A stretch of 5,022 nt of DNA, from assembly GCA_946481465.1 (NCBI GenBank), contig CAMLOC010000335.1:1-5022 (forward strand), in the 5' to 3' direction. Shown here piece by piece: positions 1 through 5,022 of the stretch. How positions within the stretch are numbered: the stretch's first letter is position 1; the number at the start of each line of letters is the position of its first letter. The translations under genes and the position numbers were made by a program. The notes beneath the pieces are model-generated. The model saw nothing but the letters and a program-made list of their open reading frames with translations. It made no database searches and was not told the DNA's origin. Source of the DNA: an uncultured Shinella sp. (GTDB lineage Bacteria; Pseudomonadota; Alphaproteobacteria; Rhizobiales; Rhizobiaceae).

Positions 1-60
1 GCCACCCCCTCATCCGACCCTTCGGGCCACCTTCTCCCCGTGGGGGGAGAAGGGAAGAGC
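1..60. repeat. Rhizobial-type palindromic intergenic repeat (partial, cut by window edge)
   Basis: This C-rich then G-rich stretch resembles the palindromic repeats scattered between genes in Rhizobiaceae genomes; that family resemblance is from memory. Seen directly: a perfect 10-bp stem, CCTTCTCCCC at 30-39 against GGGGAGAAGG at 44-53, with a 4-nt loop, and a smaller CCC-TTC-GGG hairpin at 18-26. It begins 17 bp beyond the aldolase stop codon. The hairpin could slow or end transcription of that gene or protect its mRNA 3' end, but no T-run follows it on the minus strand, so it is not a standard intrinsic terminator. The left boundary may lie outside the window. Confidence 0.6.
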
Positions 61-76
61 GGTTGCGCCCTTTCCG

Positions 77-973
77 TCAGGCCTTCGTCGCGCTGGCGGC
101 GTAGATCTCGTCGATCGTCCGGGCGAGGCTGGCGTTGAAGTCGGCGTCGGTCATCGTTGCGCGCAGGTCCTCGGTGAGGGCGCGCGAGAAGCTGGCGATC
201 ATGCCGTGGTTGTGGCTGAGCTTCTCGCAGGCGTCCGCCCGGCTGTAGCCGCCGGAAAGGGCGACGACGCGGGTGACCGCCTTGTGTGCGACGAGCGGCC
301 CGTAGAAATCCGCGCGCGTCGGCAGGGTCAGCTTCAGCATGACCTTCTCGCCGGCCGGCAGGGCGTCGAGCGCGCGGGCGATCTCGTCACGCAGGATCGC
401 CTCGGCCTCCTCCTTGCTCGGGCTCTTGATCGAGACTTCCGGCTCGATGATCGGCACGAGGCCGTGGCCGAGGATCTGCCGGCCGATGGCGAACTGCTGC
501 TTCACCACGGCGGCAATGCCGGTCTTGTCGGCATGGGCGATGACCGAGCGCATCTTGGTGCCGAAGATGCCCTTCTTCACCGCGCGGGCAAGCAGGGCGT
601 CGAGATCGGGCATCGGCTTCATCACCTGCGCGCCGTTCTCTTCCGCCGCAAGGCCCTTGTCGACCTTGAGGAAGGGCACGACGCCGCGGTCCTCCCACAG
701 ATAGGCCGGCACCGGCCTGCCGCCCGCCTCGCCGTCCATGGTCTTCTCGAACAGGATGGCGCCGATCACCTTCTCGCCGGTGAAGGCCGGCGCCGTCATG
801 ATGCGCACGCGCATCTCGTGCATCAGGCGGAACATCGCCGCCTCGCCGTCATAGTCGCTCTCGGCAATGCCGTAGAGCCGGAGGGCGCCCGGCGTGGAAC
901 CGCCGCTCTGGTCGAGGGCGGCGATGAAGCCCTCCTTGCCGGTCATCTGCGCCATCATCCTTGCATCGGCCAT
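77..973 (-). CDS. fda: Class I fructose-bisphosphate aldolase
   Basis: The predicted 298-residue cytosolic enzyme interconverts fructose 1,6-bisphosphate with dihydroxyacetone phosphate and glyceraldehyde 3-phosphate through a Schiff-base lysine, in glycolysis or gluconeogenesis. It matches the short bacterial class I aldolases of about 295 residues (the Staphylococcus Fda type). Visible motifs: FIAALDQSGGSTP at about 16-28, which contributes the phosphate/substrate aspartate; PFLKVDKG at 100-107; the IIEPEV acid segment at 175-180; KLTLP at 214-218, whose lysine is the likely Schiff base; and the phosphate-binding ALSGGYSR at 238-245. The frame stays open to 1210, but the start at 973 is supported by a GGAGG six bases upstream and by where similarity begins. 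The gene lies 70 bp downstream of the winged-helix/TPR regulator on the same strand and may be read from that promoter. The family call is firm; the symbol varies (fda, fbaB). Confidence 0.96.
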   Translation of the reverse strand: MADARMMAQMTGKEGFIAALDQSGGSTPGALRLYGIAESDYDGEAAMFRLMHEMRVRIMTAPAFTGEKVIGAILFEKTMDGEAGGRPVPAYLWEDRGVVPFLKVDKGLAAEENGAQVMKPMPDLDALLARAVKKGIFGTKMRSVIAHADKTGIAAVVKQQFAIGRQILGHGLVPIIEPEVSIKSPSKEEAEAILRDEIARALDALPAGEKVMLKLTLPTRADFYGPLVAHKAVTRVVALSGGYSRADACEKLSHNHGMIASFSRALTEDLRATMTDADFNASLARTIDEIYAASATKA

Positions 974-979
974 GGGTTT

Positions 980-984
980 CCTCC
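980..984 (-). promoter_or_regulatory. Shine-Dalgarno site fixing the aldolase start
   Basis: On the minus strand, AGGGAGGAAACCC precedes the ATG at 973. The GGAGG core is six bases from the start codon. It selects this start over the upstream in-frame extension, which overlaps the regulator gene and has low-complexity Arg-rich composition. Confidence 0.85.
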
Positions 985-1037
985 CTGTTGCGGGCCGGGA
1001 CGCGGCGCGCCCTGCCCTGGTCTTTCGTGCCTGCCGT

Positions 1038-1060
1038 CCGGCCTCATGCCGGAAGGCCGG
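1038..1060 (-). other. Hairpin spanning the regulator stop codon
   Basis: A 7-bp stem, CCGGCCT at 1038-1044 against AGGCCGG at 1054-1060, with a 9-nt loop, covers the last codons and stop of the winged-helix/TPR gene. No T-run follows in the direction of transcription, so it is a poor terminator and would not clearly separate this gene from fda. It might pause or process a shared transcript. In GC-rich DNA such stems also arise by chance. Confidence 0.3.
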
Positions 1061-2552
1061 CCTTGCGATAGCCCTCGACGAAATGCGCCCGTGTCGCCGC
1101 ATCGCGGAACGGTTCCGTCTCCGCCCATTGGCGGGTCGAGAAATGCGGGTTTGCGACGAGGAACAGTTCGACCTCCGCCCGCGCCTCGTCGAGCCGGCCG
1201 AGCTGGGCAAGGCTTGCCGCCAGGAACCGGCGCGAGCCGGTGCGGTAGGTCTCGTCCCGGGTCAGCGTCTCGACGGCGGCCGCGTAGGCGCCGGCGGCAT
1301 ATTGCGCCTGGCCGAGCGTCAGGTAGTACCAGCTTGCCGGATAGGGATTGAGCCGGAAGGCCTTGCGGATCTGCTCCAGCCCCTCCTCGATGCGGCCTGC
1401 AAGCACGAGGATGTCGGAAAGCGTGGCGAAGGTGTCGGCCTCGTTCGGATCGAGCGCGATGGCCGTCTCGAACGCGGCATCCGCCTCCTCGAAGCGGCGC
1501 TCGTAGGCGAGGAGGTTCGCCAGCACCCAGCGGCAGCCCGCATCGTTGGGGTCTATCGCCACGGCCTTCTGCGCAAGGGCGAGCGCAAGGCCTCGGGCCG
1601 GCTCCTCCGGCTCGCCCCAGTGCACCCAGCCCATCCAGTGGTTCATGGCCAGCCAGCGATGGGCCTCGGCATAATCGGGATCGAGCGCGACGGCGCGCGT
1701 CAGCATCAGATGCGCCTCGCGCGCCGTCTGCGGCGAAAGGTCGATCAGTTTTCGCGCCCGCACGCACAGGTCATGGGCCTCGAGGCTCTTCGGCCGGTTG
1801 CGCGGCGGCGGGGCGCGCAGGCGCCCCAGCAGCGCCTCGACGATCTTGCCGGCGACCTCGTCCTGCACGCGAAAGATATCGTCGAGGCTGCGGTCGAAGC
1901 GCTCCGCCCACAGATGGCCGCCGTCGAGCGCATCGACCAGCTGCACGTTGACGCGCACGCGCCCGCTGGTATGCCGGGCGCTGCCCTGCAACAGGTAGCG
2001 CACGCCGAGGTCCCCGGCGACGGCGCGCACATCCGCCGCCCGGCCCTTGTAGGCGAAGGCCGAGTTGCGGGCGATGACGAAGAGGCCGGGCATGCGGGAA
2101 AGGTCGGTGATGAGGTCTTCCGTCAGCCCGTCGGAAAAGCTCTCCTGCTGCGGGTCGCCGCTGACATTGACGAAGGGCAGGACGGCGATCGACGGCCGGT
2201 CGGGCAGCGGGCGCGCCACAAGCGCCTGCGGCGCCGTGGGGCCAGTGAAGCGGTAGCCGACGCGCGGCACGGTCGAGATCCATTCGCCGCCGCCTTCGGC
2301 CGGGCCGAGCAGCTTGCGCAACTGGGCGATCTGGACGGTGAGGTTGCCTTCCTCGACGGCGGTGCCCGGCCAGGCCGCATCCATCAGCTCGGCCTTGCCG
2401 AGGATTTCGCCGGGCCGGCCGACCAGCGCGGCAAGCAGCTTCAGCCCGCGATGACCGACGGCAACGGGGTCGTCGTTCCGAAGGAGCGTTCCCGCACCGG
2501 AATCAAGCACGAACGGACCAAAGGCGAAGCGCGCTCCCTGCATAGGGGGCAT
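1044..2552 (-). CDS. Winged-helix / TolB-like / TPR multidomain transcriptional regulator
   Basis: A 502-residue protein, predicted soluble with no membrane segment. Residues about 8-104 form an OmpR/PhoB-type winged helix (FGPFVLD strand, recognition-helix region EEGNLTVQIAQLRKLLG at 67-83, wing STVPRVGYRF at 93-102). Residues about 118-245 match the TolB-like region of the 'adenylate cyclase-like' family (RPSIAVLPFVNVSGD at 119-133, FSDGLTEDLITDLSR at 139-153, GHLWAERFDR at 212-221). From about 275 to 470 there are TPR-like helix pairs with alanine-rich repeats ending in DPN/DPD, and the tail ends in HFVEGYRKAGLP. There is no receiver domain and no cyclase catalytic domain, so control is probably by ligand or protein binding to the TolB/TPR part; that is inference. 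Neither ATG (2552, or 2543 giving 499 residues) has a Shine-Dalgarno. A -10-like TATAGA overlapping the first ATG favours leaderless initiation at 2543. Target genes are unknown; fda, the adjacent DUF1127 gene, or itself are the obvious candidates. Confidence 0.9.
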   Translation of the reverse strand: MPPMQGARFAFGPFVLDSGAGTLLRNDDPVAVGHRGLKLLAALVGRPGEILGKAELMDAAWPGTAVEEGNLTVQIAQLRKLLGPAEGGGEWISTVPRVGYRFTGPTAPQALVARPLPDRPSIAVLPFVNVSGDPQQESFSDGLTEDLITDLSRMPGLFVIARNSAFAYKGRAADVRAVAGDLGVRYLLQGSARHTSGRVRVNVQLVDALDGGHLWAERFDRSLDDIFRVQDEVAGKIVEALLGRLRAPPPRNRPKSLEAHDLCVRARKLIDLSPQTAREAHLMLTRAVALDPDYAEAHRWLAMNHWMGWVHWGEPEEPARGLALALAQKAVAIDPNDAGCRWVLANLLAYERRFEEADAAFETAIALDPNEADTFATLSDILVLAGRIEEGLEQIRKAFRLNPYPASWYYLTLGQAQYAAGAYAAAVETLTRDETYRTGSRRFLAASLAQLGRLDEARAEVELFLVANPHFSTRQWAETEPFRDAATRAHFVEGYRKAGLPA

Positions 2553-2581
2553 CTATAGCCGGTTTTGGAAGTTTTTGAGAA
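2552..2581 (-). promoter_or_regulatory. Candidate promoter for the winged-helix regulator
   Basis: On the minus strand, TTCTCA (2581-2576, 4/6 to TTGACA) and TATAGA (2557-2552, 4/6 to TATAAT) are separated by 18 bases. A start site 6-8 bases beyond the -10 would fall at about 2543-2546, next to the ATG at 2543, giving a leaderless or nearly leaderless mRNA. This fits the lack of a Shine-Dalgarno. The -35 lies inside the 11-bp repeat array, as expected for an autoregulated promoter. Both hexamers are weak, so this is tentative. Confidence 0.35.
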
Positions 2582-2604
2582 CTTTTTGGGACCCTTTAAG
2601 GACG
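2561..2604. promoter_or_regulatory. Four 11-bp tandem T-rich iterons, possible regulator operator
   Basis: Four consecutive 11-mers start at 2561, 2572, 2583 and 2594: GGTTTTGGAAG, TTTTTGAGAAC, TTTTTGGGACC and CTTTAAGGACG. Columns 3, 4, 8 and 9 (T, T, G, A) are invariant, and the consensus is about TTTTTGGGAMC. OmpR/PhoB-type winged helices typically bind head-to-tail half-sites spaced 10-11 bp on one helix face. The array lies 9 bp from the start of exactly such a regulator and 73 bp from the divergent DUF1127 gene, so it is a natural autoregulatory or shared operator. The T-tracts in helical phase would also bend the DNA. The repeats are seen directly; the binding is inferred. Confidence 0.5.
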
Positions 2605-2676
2605 GTTCCCCGCCCCTCCCGCACAATGGCGCCTTCAGACGCGGGCTTTTCCGCGAAAAATCCCCTGGAGGCGACC

Positions 2677-2880
2677 ATGCGCCACGTTTCCACGGCAAGG
2701 CTATCCGCCCTGCCCGACCTTGCACGCCTTCGCGCCCGGCTGGCCGCCTGGGACGCGCGCCTGCGCTTTCGCCGGGACCTCGCCCGCAAGACGGCGGAGA
2801 CCCCGCACCTGATCGCGGATATCGGCCTGACGCGCGCGGCGGCCGAGGCCGAGATCGCCAAGCCGTTCTGGCGGGTGTAG
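2677..2880 (+). CDS. DUF1127 (YjiS-like) small protein
   Basis: A 67-residue basic protein with the DUF1127 signature: a tryptophan in an Arg-rich helix (LAAWDARLRFRRDL at 22-35), DIGLTRAAAEAEIAKPFWR at 48-66, and an end just after the FWR motif. Small DUF1127 proteins are numerous in Rhizobiaceae. Several have been linked to RNA interaction, phosphate or carbon metabolism and stress phenotypes, but no role can be assigned to this one. The ATG at 2677 has GGAGG at 2667-2671, five bases upstream, and the Arg-rich domain follows directly, so this start is preferred over the open frame reaching back to 2575. A small CGCGG/CCGCG hairpin (2640-2655) lies in the leader just before the ribosome site. 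It is divergent from the winged-helix regulator, shares its control region, and is followed 24 bp later by the reading frame leading into the MFS transporter. Confidence 0.9.
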   Translation: MRHVSTARLSALPDLARLRARLAAWDARLRFRRDLARKTAETPHLIADIGLTRAAAEAEIAKPFWRV

Positions 2881-2947
2881 AACCGGCGGGACGGTGAGGA
2901 TCGCATGACGGCCGAAAGCACGACGGCAGGGCAGGGCACTGCATATG

Positions 2948-3090
2948 GCTTGAAACCCCTCCCTAAATCCCTCCCCACAAGGGGGAGGGACTTAACCCGC
3001 GGCCCCTCGATGGCCAAAGGGACCGGAAAAGCAAGCGCCTTGCTTTCTCCCCCCTTGTGGGGGAGATGCCGGCAGGCAGAGGGGGTGTTC
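2948..3090. repeat. Palindromic intergenic repeat element between two CATATG copies
   Basis: Three hairpins in a row are visible: TCCCTCCCC/GGGGAGGGA (2968-2976 with 2982-2990), AAAGCAAG/CTTGCTTT (3028-3035 with 3039-3046) and TCTCCCCC/GGGGGAGA (3046-3053 with 3059-3066). The outer arms also pair over distance: CCCCACAAGGGGG at 2973-2985 is the reverse complement of 3050-3062. This is the layout of the common Rhizobiaceae C-rich intergenic repeat; the family match is from memory. CATATG occurs at 2942-2947 and 3091-3096, exactly at the two edges, and could be a 6-bp target duplication. The element is open in the frame of the downstream transporter and carries a GAGGGGG near its right end that could act as a ribosome site. 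Confidence 0.75.
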
Positions 3091-3093
3091 CAT

Positions 3094-4254
3094 ATGCGAT
3101 TGCCTTGCCACAATGGGCAGGGAGGCGGCATTCCGCTGGCCGCGATGGCCGGCATCATCGCGACCGTCTCGGTCTTCGCGTTGGCGCAGGGGCTGACCTA
3201 TCCGCTGCTCAGCTTCATCCTGGAGCGGCAGGGCACGACGCCCGGCCTCATCGGCCTGTCGGCGGCCATGACGCCGCTCGGCTTCATCGTCTCGGCGCCG
3301 CTCGTGCCGCCGCTCGCGCGGCGCCTCGGCGGGGCGCGGCTGGCGATCCTGTGCGCGCTGCTCGCCGCGCTCACGCTTGCCGCCATCGCGCTGCTGCAGG
3401 ATGTCGCCGCCTGGATGCCGCTGCGCCTTCTCCTCGGCGTCTTCGCCAACCCGCTCTATGTCGTCAGCGAGACCTGGCTGATCGCGCTCACGCCCGCCGC
3501 GCGCCGCGGCCGCATCCTCGGCCTCTATTCCTCGCTCGTCTCCGGCGGCTTTGCCGTCGGCCCGCTGTCGCTCGGCCTTGTCGGCACGGCGGGCTGGGCG
3601 CCGTTCCTCGTCGGCATCGTCGCCTTCCTTATATGCGGCCTCATCGTGCTTGCCGTTTCCCGGCGCCTGCCGCCGCTGCCGCGGGAGGGCGAGGCGGCGT
3701 CGCTCCGCGGGATTTTCCGTCGCGCGCCGCTCATCCTCTTCGCGGTCTTCACGGCGGCGGCCTTCGAGCAGACCGTCATGTCGCTCCTTGCGGTCTATGG
3801 CGCGGCGCTCGGCAGCGGCGAGGCGCGCATCGCGGCCCTCCTCACCGTCTTCGTCGCCGGCAATGCGGTGCTGCAGGTCGGGCTCGGGCGCATCGCCGAG
3901 CGCTACGGCGCGGCCCGCACCATGCTGGCCTGCACGCTTGCCGCGCTCCTCGTCTGCCTGCTCCTGCCACTGGCCTTTGCCGGCCGGGGCGTCTGGCCGC
4001 TCATCTTCCTCTGGGGCGGAGTGTCGTTCGGCATCTATACGATGGCGCTGATCGCGCTTGGCGAGCGCTTTTCCGGTGCGGCGCTGATCGCGGGCAATGC
4101 CGCCTTCGCGCTCGTCTGGGGTATCGGCGGCATGGTCGGCGCGCCCGTCACCGGGCTTGCCATGCAGGGTATCGGCCATCACGGCCTGCCCGCCGTTCTC
4201 GGCCTGCTGTGCCTCGCGCTCGCCTTGCTGCTTCTCGCAGAGCGGCGCCGTTGA
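3094..4254 (+). CDS. MFS transporter, 12 transmembrane segments, substrate unknown
   Basis: A 386-residue inner-membrane protein of the major facilitator superfamily. Approximate membrane segments: 15-35, 48-72, 82-102, 107-131, 141-164, 169-189, a cytoplasmic loop 190-210 (RLPPLPREGEAASLRGIFRR), then 211-235, 244-264, 274-296, 299-321, 329-356 and 364-382. A degenerate motif A (ARRLGGARL, 75-83) joins segments 2 and 3, and a second copy-like IAERYGAAR (267-275) sits in the C-terminal half. NPLYVVSETW (119-128) and RRGRILGLY (137-145) resemble the YcaD-like exporter group, but the substrate cannot be told. Three starts are possible. The ATG at 3094 (chosen) has GAGGGGG eight bases upstream, supplied by the repeat. 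The ATG at 3145 is closer to the first helix but has no well-placed ribosome site. The ATG at 2905 has a good GGTGAGGA four bases upstream but adds 63 residues mostly translated from the repeat. Convergent with the WGR gene, with six bases between stops. Confidence 0.92.
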   Translation: MRLPCHNGQGGGIPLAAMAGIIATVSVFALAQGLTYPLLSFILERQGTTPGLIGLSAAMTPLGFIVSAPLVPPLARRLGGARLAILCALLAALTLAAIALLQDVAAWMPLRLLLGVFANPLYVVSETWLIALTPAARRGRILGLYSSLVSGGFAVGPLSLGLVGTAGWAPFLVGIVAFLICGLIVLAVSRRLPPLPREGEAASLRGIFRRAPLILFAVFTAAAFEQTVMSLLAVYGAALGSGEARIAALLTVFVAGNAVLQVGLGRIAERYGAARTMLACTLAALLVCLLLPLAFAGRGVWPLIFLWGGVSFGIYTMALIALGERFSGAALIAGNAAFALVWGIGGMVGAPVTGLAMQGIGHHGLPAVLGLLCLALALLLLAERRR

Positions 4255-4265
4255 CAGCTGTCAAC
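4250..4265. repeat. Perfect 16-bp palindrome carrying both convergent stop codons (copy 1)
   Basis: GTTGACAGCTGTCAAC is a perfect palindrome. The TGA ending the transporter (4252-4254) and the TGA ending the WGR gene (4263-4261) are its symmetric halves, leaving only CAGCTG between the genes. A 19-bp stretch (4247-4265) is identical to 4606-4624. It fits TTGAC-N4-GTCAA, the Fnr/FixK-type box pattern, and also contains TTGACA on each strand. As RNA it can form a short hairpin extended by GCC/GGC with one bulge, but no T-run follows on either strand. Its role is unknown: binding site, bidirectional 3'-end element or cassette boundary. Confidence 0.7.
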
Positions 4266-4518
4266 CGGCATTGCCGCCCTCGACGGCGCGATAGCCGCGT
4301 CGCTGTTTCTGCACGGCAAGCCGGTCGGCTTCGCGGCAGGCGGCGGTGAGACTCTCCATCACCTCGCCGCGCGCCCGGGCATAGACGCCGATCCGCCCCC
4401 ATTCGCGCACCAGCAGCACCGTGCCGAAGAGATCGCGCGTCACCGTCAGCCGGTAGAAGCGCTGCATGTTGCGGGCCGCGTCCCGGCGTTCGAAATGGCT
4501 TGACCGCGTCTCTTCCAT
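4261..4518 (-). CDS. Small WGR-domain protein
   Basis: An 85-residue protein consisting almost entirely of a WGR domain: HFERRDAARNMQRFY (8-22), LTVTRDLFGTVLLVREWGRIG (24-44, with the name-giving W40-G41-R42), an alanine-rich helix (about 57-69) and the usual C-terminal KQRRGYR (71-77). WGR domains occur in PARP-type enzymes, where they help bind nucleic acid, and as short stand-alone proteins of unknown function common in rhizobia. The ATG at 4518 is chosen because the ERRD..RNM..FY stretch usually begins the domain; the frame is open to 4623 but that part looks noncoding. No Shine-Dalgarno is evident. A 13-bp palindrome, GGCGAG-T-CTCGCC (4521-4533), lies two bases upstream of the start. The gene is bracketed by two identical palindromes (4250-4265 and 4609-4624), the upstream one suited to controlling it. 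Convergent with the MFS gene. Confidence 0.85.
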   Translation of the reverse strand: MEETRSSHFERRDAARNMQRFYRLTVTRDLFGTVLLVREWGRIGVYARARGEVMESLTAACREADRLAVQKQRRGYRAVEGGNAG

Positions 4519-4607
4519 GGGGCGAGTCTCGCCGCGGGGGCGAATCCCGTCCAACGACTTTTTGCGATCGGTGGCGCGGCATCGATTCACGCGGCTGATG
4601 GATGGGC

Positions 4608-4625
4608 CGTTGACAGCTGTCAACG
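4608..4625 (-). promoter_or_regulatory. Palindrome copy 2: Fnr/FixK-like box or -35 region upstream of the WGR gene
   Basis: CGTTGACAGCTGTCAACG is an 18-bp perfect palindrome whose inner 16 bp equal copy 1 at 4250-4265. Its centre is about 98 bases upstream of the WGR start codon. TTGAC-N4-GTCAA agrees with the general Crp/Fnr-family (Fnr, FixK, Dnr) half-site arrangement. Separately, the minus-strand TTGACA (4623-4618) is a perfect -35, but the hexamer 17 bases on (CATCAG, 4600-4595) is a poor -10. Activation through a bound regulator would fit this imbalance. The actual binding protein is not identifiable from sequence alone. Confidence 0.45.
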
Positions 4626-4647
4626 CGGGCCCGGCGGCGGCGGGGAA

Positions 4648-4835
4648 AAGAATCGGCGCCGGGGCGACAGGCGATTCTTCTGCCGCGCGGCGCGATGCCC
4701 GTCCGGTCCCGCGGCAAGGGAGTCGGAATCCAGTGGACGACGGGTCGCCGGGAATCGTGCGAGTCCTGATTCTCCGGGATTCCCGGGCCTTGCCGCCAGG
4801 GCCTCGTTAACCAAAAAACGCTTGACGCGACTCGC
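4648..4835. repeat. Nested inverted repeats in the intergenic region
   Basis: Seen directly: AAGAATCG 4648-4655 with CGATTCTT 4672-4679; GCGGCAAGG 4711-4719 with CCTTGCCGC 4788-4796; CCGGGAATC 4748-4756 with GATTCCCGG 4778-4786, nested inside the former; and GCGAGTC 4759-4765 with GACTCGC 4829-4835. A competing pair is GGAATCC 4725-4731 with GGATTCC 4777-4783, and CCGGGA-T-TCCCGG at 4774-4786 is itself an odd palindrome. Most arms contain a GANTC. They could be paired protein-binding sites or a folded RNA; no promoter or T-run terminator around them settles which. Confidence 0.5.
4807..4827 (+). promoter_or_regulatory. CtrA-like half-site and -35-like element
   Basis: TTAACCAA (4807-4814) differs at one base from the CtrA half-site TTAACCAT, and CTTGACG (4821-4827) resembles the -35 of rhizobial housekeeping promoters. 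No convincing -10 lies 16-18 bases further on (CACCGT region), which is compatible with an activator-dependent promoter or with chance. The next gene starts about 190 bases downstream, which would give a long leader. This is the only relatively A-rich spot (CCAAAAAACG) of the intergenic region. Confidence 0.3.
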
Positions 4836-5016
4836 AACCTGCCCCACCGTCTCTTACGGAACCGGGCGAAGATTGTGATTTTCGCCGTAACTGCCAAAGG
4901 TCCCTGTAGATTTTCCCGTCCCCGCATATCCCCGCGGTGGAGAATCGCAGACACTATGGCAAGCCGATGCGCCGGACCATGAGGGGCCGCGGATCGGGAA
5001 GGAACGGAGACTGCCG

Positions 5017-5022
5017 ATGGCC
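5017..5022 (+). CDS. Start of an unidentified gene (first two codons only)
   Basis: ATGGCC at the window edge is preceded by AAGGAACGGAGA, with GGAGA six bases from the ATG, a good ribosome site. Only Met-Ala is visible, so the product cannot be named. A short upstream reading frame (ATG 4956 to TGA 4982, eight codons, MASRCAGP) and an out-of-frame ATG at 4979 lie in its leader, but neither has a well-spaced ribosome site. The gene would be the natural target of the GANTC-rich region. Confidence 0.5.

Follow-up and report, generated by a model that had tools for sequence, protein, structure and literature searches.

The GANTC cluster at the end of the window (the whole 5,022-nt stretch of DNA analysed here) lies upstream of repABC, the operon for replication and partition on a large Shinella plasmid, and beside parS. 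It is probably a methylation-responsive, CcrM-gated control region of a pShin-02-type Shinella plasmid, to which a multi-site array has been added. Among the readings offered in the initial annotation, that of a replication-associated site is supported by the position upstream of repABC and next to parS. A methylation-gated promoter had been proposed as well; the repABC upstream region points the right way for this reading, with gating by methylation being putative.

Genomic context

DNA and protein searches grouped the window with Shinella plasmids of the pShin-02 type. The cluster was placed between a small WGR-domain gene and the start of repA (Table 1). The window stops at the second codon of the predicted repA frame, and repB and repC lie beyond its end. 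In the orthologous locus L081 (NZ_CP015738) the gene order was WGR gene (minus strand), intergenic region, repA, repB and repC, and it was through this ortholog that the three rep genes were found downstream of the region in one direction. The repA start codon at 5017 is a predicted one, because the L081 record annotates the start 36 bases further on. The order of WGR gene and repA was likewise annotated in L082, L267, L268 and L269. The last of these (NZ_CP084754) is labelled Roseateles sp. XES5 (UNVERIFIED_ORG, Betaproteobacteria); it contained a Shinella-type WGR-repABC region with a 94% identical RepA, and its organism label is probably wrong. A general link between WGR genes and repABC was considered and rejected: a RepA match (E 1e-10) was present in the flanks of 11 among the best 80 of 247 WGR relatives, and these 11 came from Shinella, Aminobacter and one Mesorhizobium MAG.

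The window contained two exact matches to the parS pattern, against 0.01 expected. At the place aligned to the second one, the site was exact in 8 of 12 relatives and carried one mismatch in L083 and L003; it was absent in L006 and L270. The two identical sites bracket the WGR gene, as they also do in L001, L004 and L082. In L002, the far site was located ~300 bp beyond the WGR gene. Elsewhere in the window, short G+C-rich palindromic intergenic stretches occurred in 1-60 and 2950-3090 (near 36-51, ~2970 and ~3055), which we take to resemble a dispersed Rhizobiales repeat.

Table 1. Features in and around the GANTC cluster (window coordinates; array, repA and promoter-like elements in order of position).
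Feature	Position	Strand	Remarks
parS-type site GTTGACAGCTGTCAAC	4250..4265		Matches GTTNNCNGCNGNNAAC; located at the WGR 3' end
Small WGR-domain gene	4261..4515	-	Pfam PF05406, E 2.8e-17; divergent from repA
Three WGR-side GANTC sites	4524..4588		4524, 4542, 4584; 12-relative alignment
Second parS-type site GTTGACAGCTGTCAAC	4609..4624		Matches GTTNNCNGCNGNNAAC exactly
GANTC array, eight sites	4625..4812		4650, 4673, 4720, 4726, 4752, 4761, 4768, 4778
P1, GTTAACC - N9 - TTGAC (4822) - N2 - GACTC (4829)	4806..4833	+	Conserved promoter-like element, putative function
Inverted repeat TTACGG ... CCGTAA	4854..4890		Seen by eye in aligned Shinella relatives; downstream of P1
P2, GAATC at 4942 ahead of weak -10-like CACTAT	4928..4957	+	Promoter-like, putative function
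First two codons of repA, ATGGCC	5017..5022	+	GGAGA ahead at 5006; in L081, the frame MAKPSHTALGES... begins at this junction

GANTC density and methylation genes

The window contained 15 GANTC sites, at 2500, at 4350 and at the 13 positions given in Table 1. The counts of the initial annotation (two in 1-4520 and 13 in 4521-5022, with 12 within 4524-4833 and nine within 4650-4833) were exact. The window as a whole was not GANTC-rich (15 sites against a shuffle mean of 21.3); the sites were concentrated in one place. With 25.6 GANTC per kb, 4516-5022 exceeded the background ~29-fold, its 13 sites comparing with 0.45 expected from the background of the related (orthologous) plasmid pShin-02. 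Dinucleotide shuffles of 4516-5016 contained 2.9 sites on average and 9 at most, and 13 was reached in none of 5000. The strong local enrichment proposed from the initial scan was thus borne out. Among 136 gapped four-base words, GANTC also ranked first by a wide margin in over-representation (Poisson probability 3e-15; runner-up word 0.0016). The probability that such a site density arose by chance is negligible.

The baseline of that scan, one site per 310 bp as computed from base composition, was wrong: GANTC occurred at 0.89 per kb in pShin-02 (400 of 446 kb) and at 0.865 per kb in the Shinella granuli genome (1.2 of about 6.6 Mb). Because this background is so low, the sparse genes of the window are approximately normal; their claimed depletion (0.44 per kb in 1-4515) was not far from the Shinella norm.

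In the 400 kb of pShin-02, the repA upstream region was the densest GANTC spot, with 10 sites in 310 bp and 11 in 500 bp. Elsewhere in the plasmid, the sites numbered at most 4 per 310 bp and at most 6 per 500 bp. The densest 310 bp of the 1.2-Mb S. granuli sample, in which the species' own copy of the locus was not included, held 6. That spot (L279:14877, G003:C1:154877) was situated between an ORF end at 14847 and an ORF start at 15239. A search for further clusters across genomes, as suggested at the outset, yielded no similar one in a sample of 1.6 Mb from related replicons (pShin-02 and S. granuli).

The absence of ccrM was likewise looked for, and candidate ccrM-type genes were found in all five Shinella relatives. 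They were assigned by a CcrM-type RAMA domain (PF18755) over the cut-off. GcrA (PF07750) was also over the cut-off in 5/5 relatives, with a model that matched Sulfolobus, one of 14 controls, as well.

Survey of repA upstream regions

GANTC sites were counted upstream of repA in 149 distinct regions, which came almost entirely from Shinella's family and did not include the window itself. The set combined the already collected loci with 80 further RepA matches from a search in which 121 genomes were drawn and 66 had a match at E 1e-60. These 80 were taken by hand, top down, among the matches listed, skipping matches near contig ends, apparent duplicates, one partial match, a few others and those lower down. 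A match was kept only if at least 100 residues were aligned and the alignment began no later than residue 25; regions with identical last 300 bases were dropped.

The regions had a median of 3 and a mean of 3.9 GANTC per 600 bp, and three of them had none. The clade of the window, represented by five rows, had 11, 12, 13, 13 and 14 sites (the two 13-site rows, L002 and L267, share one site pattern); the next highest region had 8. On the basis of this survey, repABC upstream regions are GANTC-rich as a group, at ~7 times the Shinella background, and the clade is their extreme. Shinella plasmids with a 92-95% identical RepA had only 4-7 sites. In the suggested check of whether orthologous regions keep the density while diverging in sequence, they did so in the clade of the window and not in these plasmids. 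Since the latter manage with 4-7 sites, repABC can be controlled without the array.

Promoter-like elements upstream of repA

Twelve relatives were aligned to the window, four of its clade (L001, L002, L083 and L003) and eight outside it. GACTC at 4829 and GAATC at 4942, which belong to the promoter-like elements P1 and P2, were each invariant in 12/12. The TTGAC-N2-GANTC arrangement of P1 was present in 37 of the 46 surveyed regions with a RepA identity of at least 70% and in none of the remaining 103. No clear -10 element was found for P1 in the window sequence. The inverted repeat downstream of P1 is a possible RepA operator.

When positions were counted from the reference RepA start, 115 of 149 regions had a GANTC site in the bin from -140 to -75, compared with 21-72 of 149 for the other 66-bp bins. 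After dereplication, 112 windows were lined up on the GANTC near -100 of repA. A TTGCC-like box (at least 4/5 matches to TTGCC or TTGAC) was found at -14 from GANTC in 55 of them (offset mean 4.7) and a -10-like hexamer at +8 in 28 (offset mean 5.1), and the consensus preferred GAATCGG. A TATAAT-like peak at offset -2 (55/112) was set aside, as it is produced by GAATC itself. A second -35-like peak at offset -29 (40/112) corresponded to an upstream TTA-CC element, TTAACC in several windows, which preceded the TTGCC box by ~15 bases in many of the 112. The TTA-CC element resembles a CtrA half-site, which makes it a possible second input from the cell cycle.

The consensus resembles a promoter whose spacer contains a methylation site, a putative function deduced from base patterns. 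GcrA-dependent promoters are known to carry GANTC near -35/-10. The layout of CcrM/GcrA promoters, with GANTC inside or beside these boxes, fits the window by sequence, where the boxes are weak and the starts are predicted only: around 4942 the -35 and -10 matches of the window itself were weak, and the -10 of P2 was a poor match.

The GANTC array and its conservation

The array occupies the 188 bp between parS and P1. Columns 4650-4726 of the alignment were gaps in all eight relatives outside the clade. Columns 4752-4778 were mostly aligned there, yet without GANTC, and L268, L272 and L273 had one GATTC near these columns. A foreign source of the array was not apparent from blastn of 4625-4815 against plasmids, which returned five records, three of them Shinella with the same locus and the other two at E 0.5. 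Repeat expansion as the source of the sites was rejected, as they are not accounted for by the repeats, direct or inverted, that were detected.

The array segment was 62-73% identical among clade members, with 96% for the pair L083/L003. With the window as the reference, 7/8 GANTC sites were kept in L001, 6/8 in L002, 5/8 in L083 and 4/8 in L003, compared with 18-21% of other words (P from <0.00005 to 0.03). The picture was the same with the relatives as the reference (4/7 or better). In this fast-changing segment, GANTC words were thus kept to 50-100% and other words to ~20%, in a test that drew on five related sequences, including one pair with 96% identity, and in which the tested sites may themselves anchor the alignment. 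The L083/L003 pair alone showed no excess retention (P 0.83 and 0.43). Under a stricter control with 14 words of the same AT content and one gapped site dropped, the excess was significant against L001 and L002, and not against L083 (P 0.30) or L003 (P 0.71). There was some site turnover: among the five clade sequences, 4752 is GANTC only in the window and L083, and a GAATC near 4565 is present in all four relatives and missing from the window. The sites appear to have been largely conserved in the clade while the surrounding DNA changed.

These data bear on the hypothesis that the array is a neutral relic, a segment gained with many sites by chance and lacking a function. Its confinement to one clade, the differing number of array sites among the members (8, 7, 6, 5 and 4) and the weak excess for L083 and L003 under the AT-matched control are in agreement with a relic. 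However, the sites were kept well above the general-word expectation at 62-73% identity, and chance is negligible as an origin of their density, so that we consider a relic very improbable.

GANTC could also be the by-product of a longer motif or a DNA hairpin serving another factor. A 9-bp inverted repeat (CCGGGAATC/GATTCCCGG) at 4748-4786 and a single-strand DNA fold with a z-score of -1.82, matched by 6 of 200 shuffles, are compatible with this, but the repeat was not kept in L001, L002, L083 or L003, the flanks of the 13 sites had no obvious common longer motif by eye, and GANTC alone was the extreme word. A hairpin was rejected for its weak fold score and its unconserved inverted repeat, and this explanation is altogether decidedly improbable.

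The three WGR-side sites differed in their distribution. The site at 4524 was kept in the four clade members only, among the 12 relatives, the one at 4542 in the clade and in L268, L269 and L084, and the one at 4584 in the clade and in L268, L269, L084, L004 and L006. Conservation of 4542 and 4584 outside the clade, on the WGR side of parS, would be expected if the sites mainly controlled the divergent WGR gene and any effect on repABC were incidental, and the annotation of a WGR gene beside repA in the Shinella-type plasmids L081, L082, L267, L268 and L269 agrees with this. In contrast, the eight array sites are on the repA side of parS, and the two most conserved sites are near repA and occur where no WGR gene is annotated upstream (L270 and L272, whose gene tables are incomplete). 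We regard control of the WGR gene as the main role of the sites as improbable.

Many closely spaced methylase sites are also found at a replication control region in Escherichia coli, where oriC carries a GATC cluster recognized by SeqA. The initial annotation had drawn this comparison, which the present data do not support. The E. coli system differs from the one described here in its methylase and in that the window cluster is not at the origin. A related explanation is that the array is a platform for hemi-methylated DNA, at which a reader of hemi-methylated or fully methylated GANTC (GcrA or a SeqA-like protein) binds many sites and holds parS/repA inactive, or is titrated, after replication. 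The high local density, the turnover of places at 4752 and near 4565 and the adjacency of the array to parS would suit such a platform. Yet a SeqA-like reader is not known from this class, and the cluster is away from the replication origin; on balance, a platform appears unlikely. An oriC-like origin was rejected by position, because the cluster is upstream of repA and not in repC, whereas the putative origin of repABC replicons is inside repC (PMC11514494). The repC gene of L081 contained only 2 GANTC sites.

Comparison with known systems

GANTC-rich repABC promoters, a proposed cell-cycle role for them and experiments on single sites are already known. GANTC enrichment at repABC promoters has been published (PMC11514494, PMC9040568), and repABC loci usually exceed the expected GANTC number, often in the repABC promoter (PMC11514494). 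Agrobacterium tumefaciens C58 resembles the window in that repABC-Ch2/ori2 has GANTC in the repA promoter region near predicted parS sites (PMC11514494). There, CcrM promotes repABC-Ch2 expression, CcrM depletion lowers transcripts, and single sites matter for transcription and maintenance. Promoter activity, assayed in C. crescentus, depended critically on M3; plasmid maintenance, assayed in S. meliloti, depended critically on M2 and M3. The authors concede that M3 might matter just as a base of the core promoter (PMC11514494). The A. tumefaciens promoter region differs from the window in having three sites instead of 13, and an array between parS and promoter is not described in the available part of that report (PMC11514494).

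The repABC plasmid pAMI4 of Paracoccus aminophilus has a parS identical to GTTGACAGCTGTCAAC (PMC9040568). It differs in its far fewer promoter sites and in the placement of its parS sites, some of which are found between repB and repC and others in a locus of their own, where five GANTC occur ~500 bp from parS3 (PMC9040568). For pTiR10, GANTC-rich control regions have been proposed to link repABC replicons to the cell cycle; unlike in the window, the origin and the repE promoter are named in the part available, and not a large repA promoter array (PMC6090056).

The repB-repC intergenic regions of related plasmids were also GANTC-rich, with three sites in L081:9060-9320, three in L082:8992-9302 and four in L272:4795-5100 (9.6-13.1 per kb). 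This agrees with the control by an antisense promoter that is known from the same intergenic region in A. tumefaciens.

Proposed role of the cluster

We propose that CcrM methylation at the two invariant sites inside the promoter-like elements (4829 and 4942) would set how efficiently RNA polymerase initiates on repABC. GcrA might be the partner of RNA polymerase at the repABC promoter, with an uncertain part. It binds sigma-2 and brings RNA polymerase to promoters that are methylated (review PMC7403470); in A. tumefaciens, repA barely changed upon GcrA depletion (PMC11514494). Cell-cycle genes of Ensifer have promoters without GANTC enrichment, and regulation is not predicted there by single sites (PMC8725594). 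The eight array sites and the three WGR-side sites would steepen or prolong the response. All sites would become hemi-methylated together when the replication fork passes, and full activity would return only after CcrM re-methylates the array late in the cell cycle. The expression of repABC, and so plasmid initiation and segregation, would be tied to once per cell cycle. The best reading is that the two core sites are general and that the array is a clade-specific addition which may sharpen or delay the response.

More tentatively, the array may be a multi-site methylation timer, a lineage-specific block on which selection acts more through how many GANTC sites it contains than through where they stand. 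Late-cycle CcrM, having to re-methylate about a dozen sites, would then turn repABC transcription from graded to switch-like and set one plasmid initiation and segregation per cycle.

No 13-site region with a clade-specific conserved array at a repABC promoter was found in the open-licence literature, represented largely by titles and the beginnings of abstracts. The present analysis adds a clade with several times the usual site number, largely kept as the surrounding DNA changed. The survey further suggests a common layout for many repABC promoters of the family, with a TTG[AC]C -35-like box and GANTC in the spacer. How the secondary replicons of Alphaproteobacteria stay in step with the cell cycle is an open problem, and CcrM control of repABC has so far been tested for few sites in one species, as far as the available literature goes. 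A promoter with about a dozen sites, together with sister plasmids that have 4-7, constitutes a natural series for relating site number to the timing and sharpness of replication.
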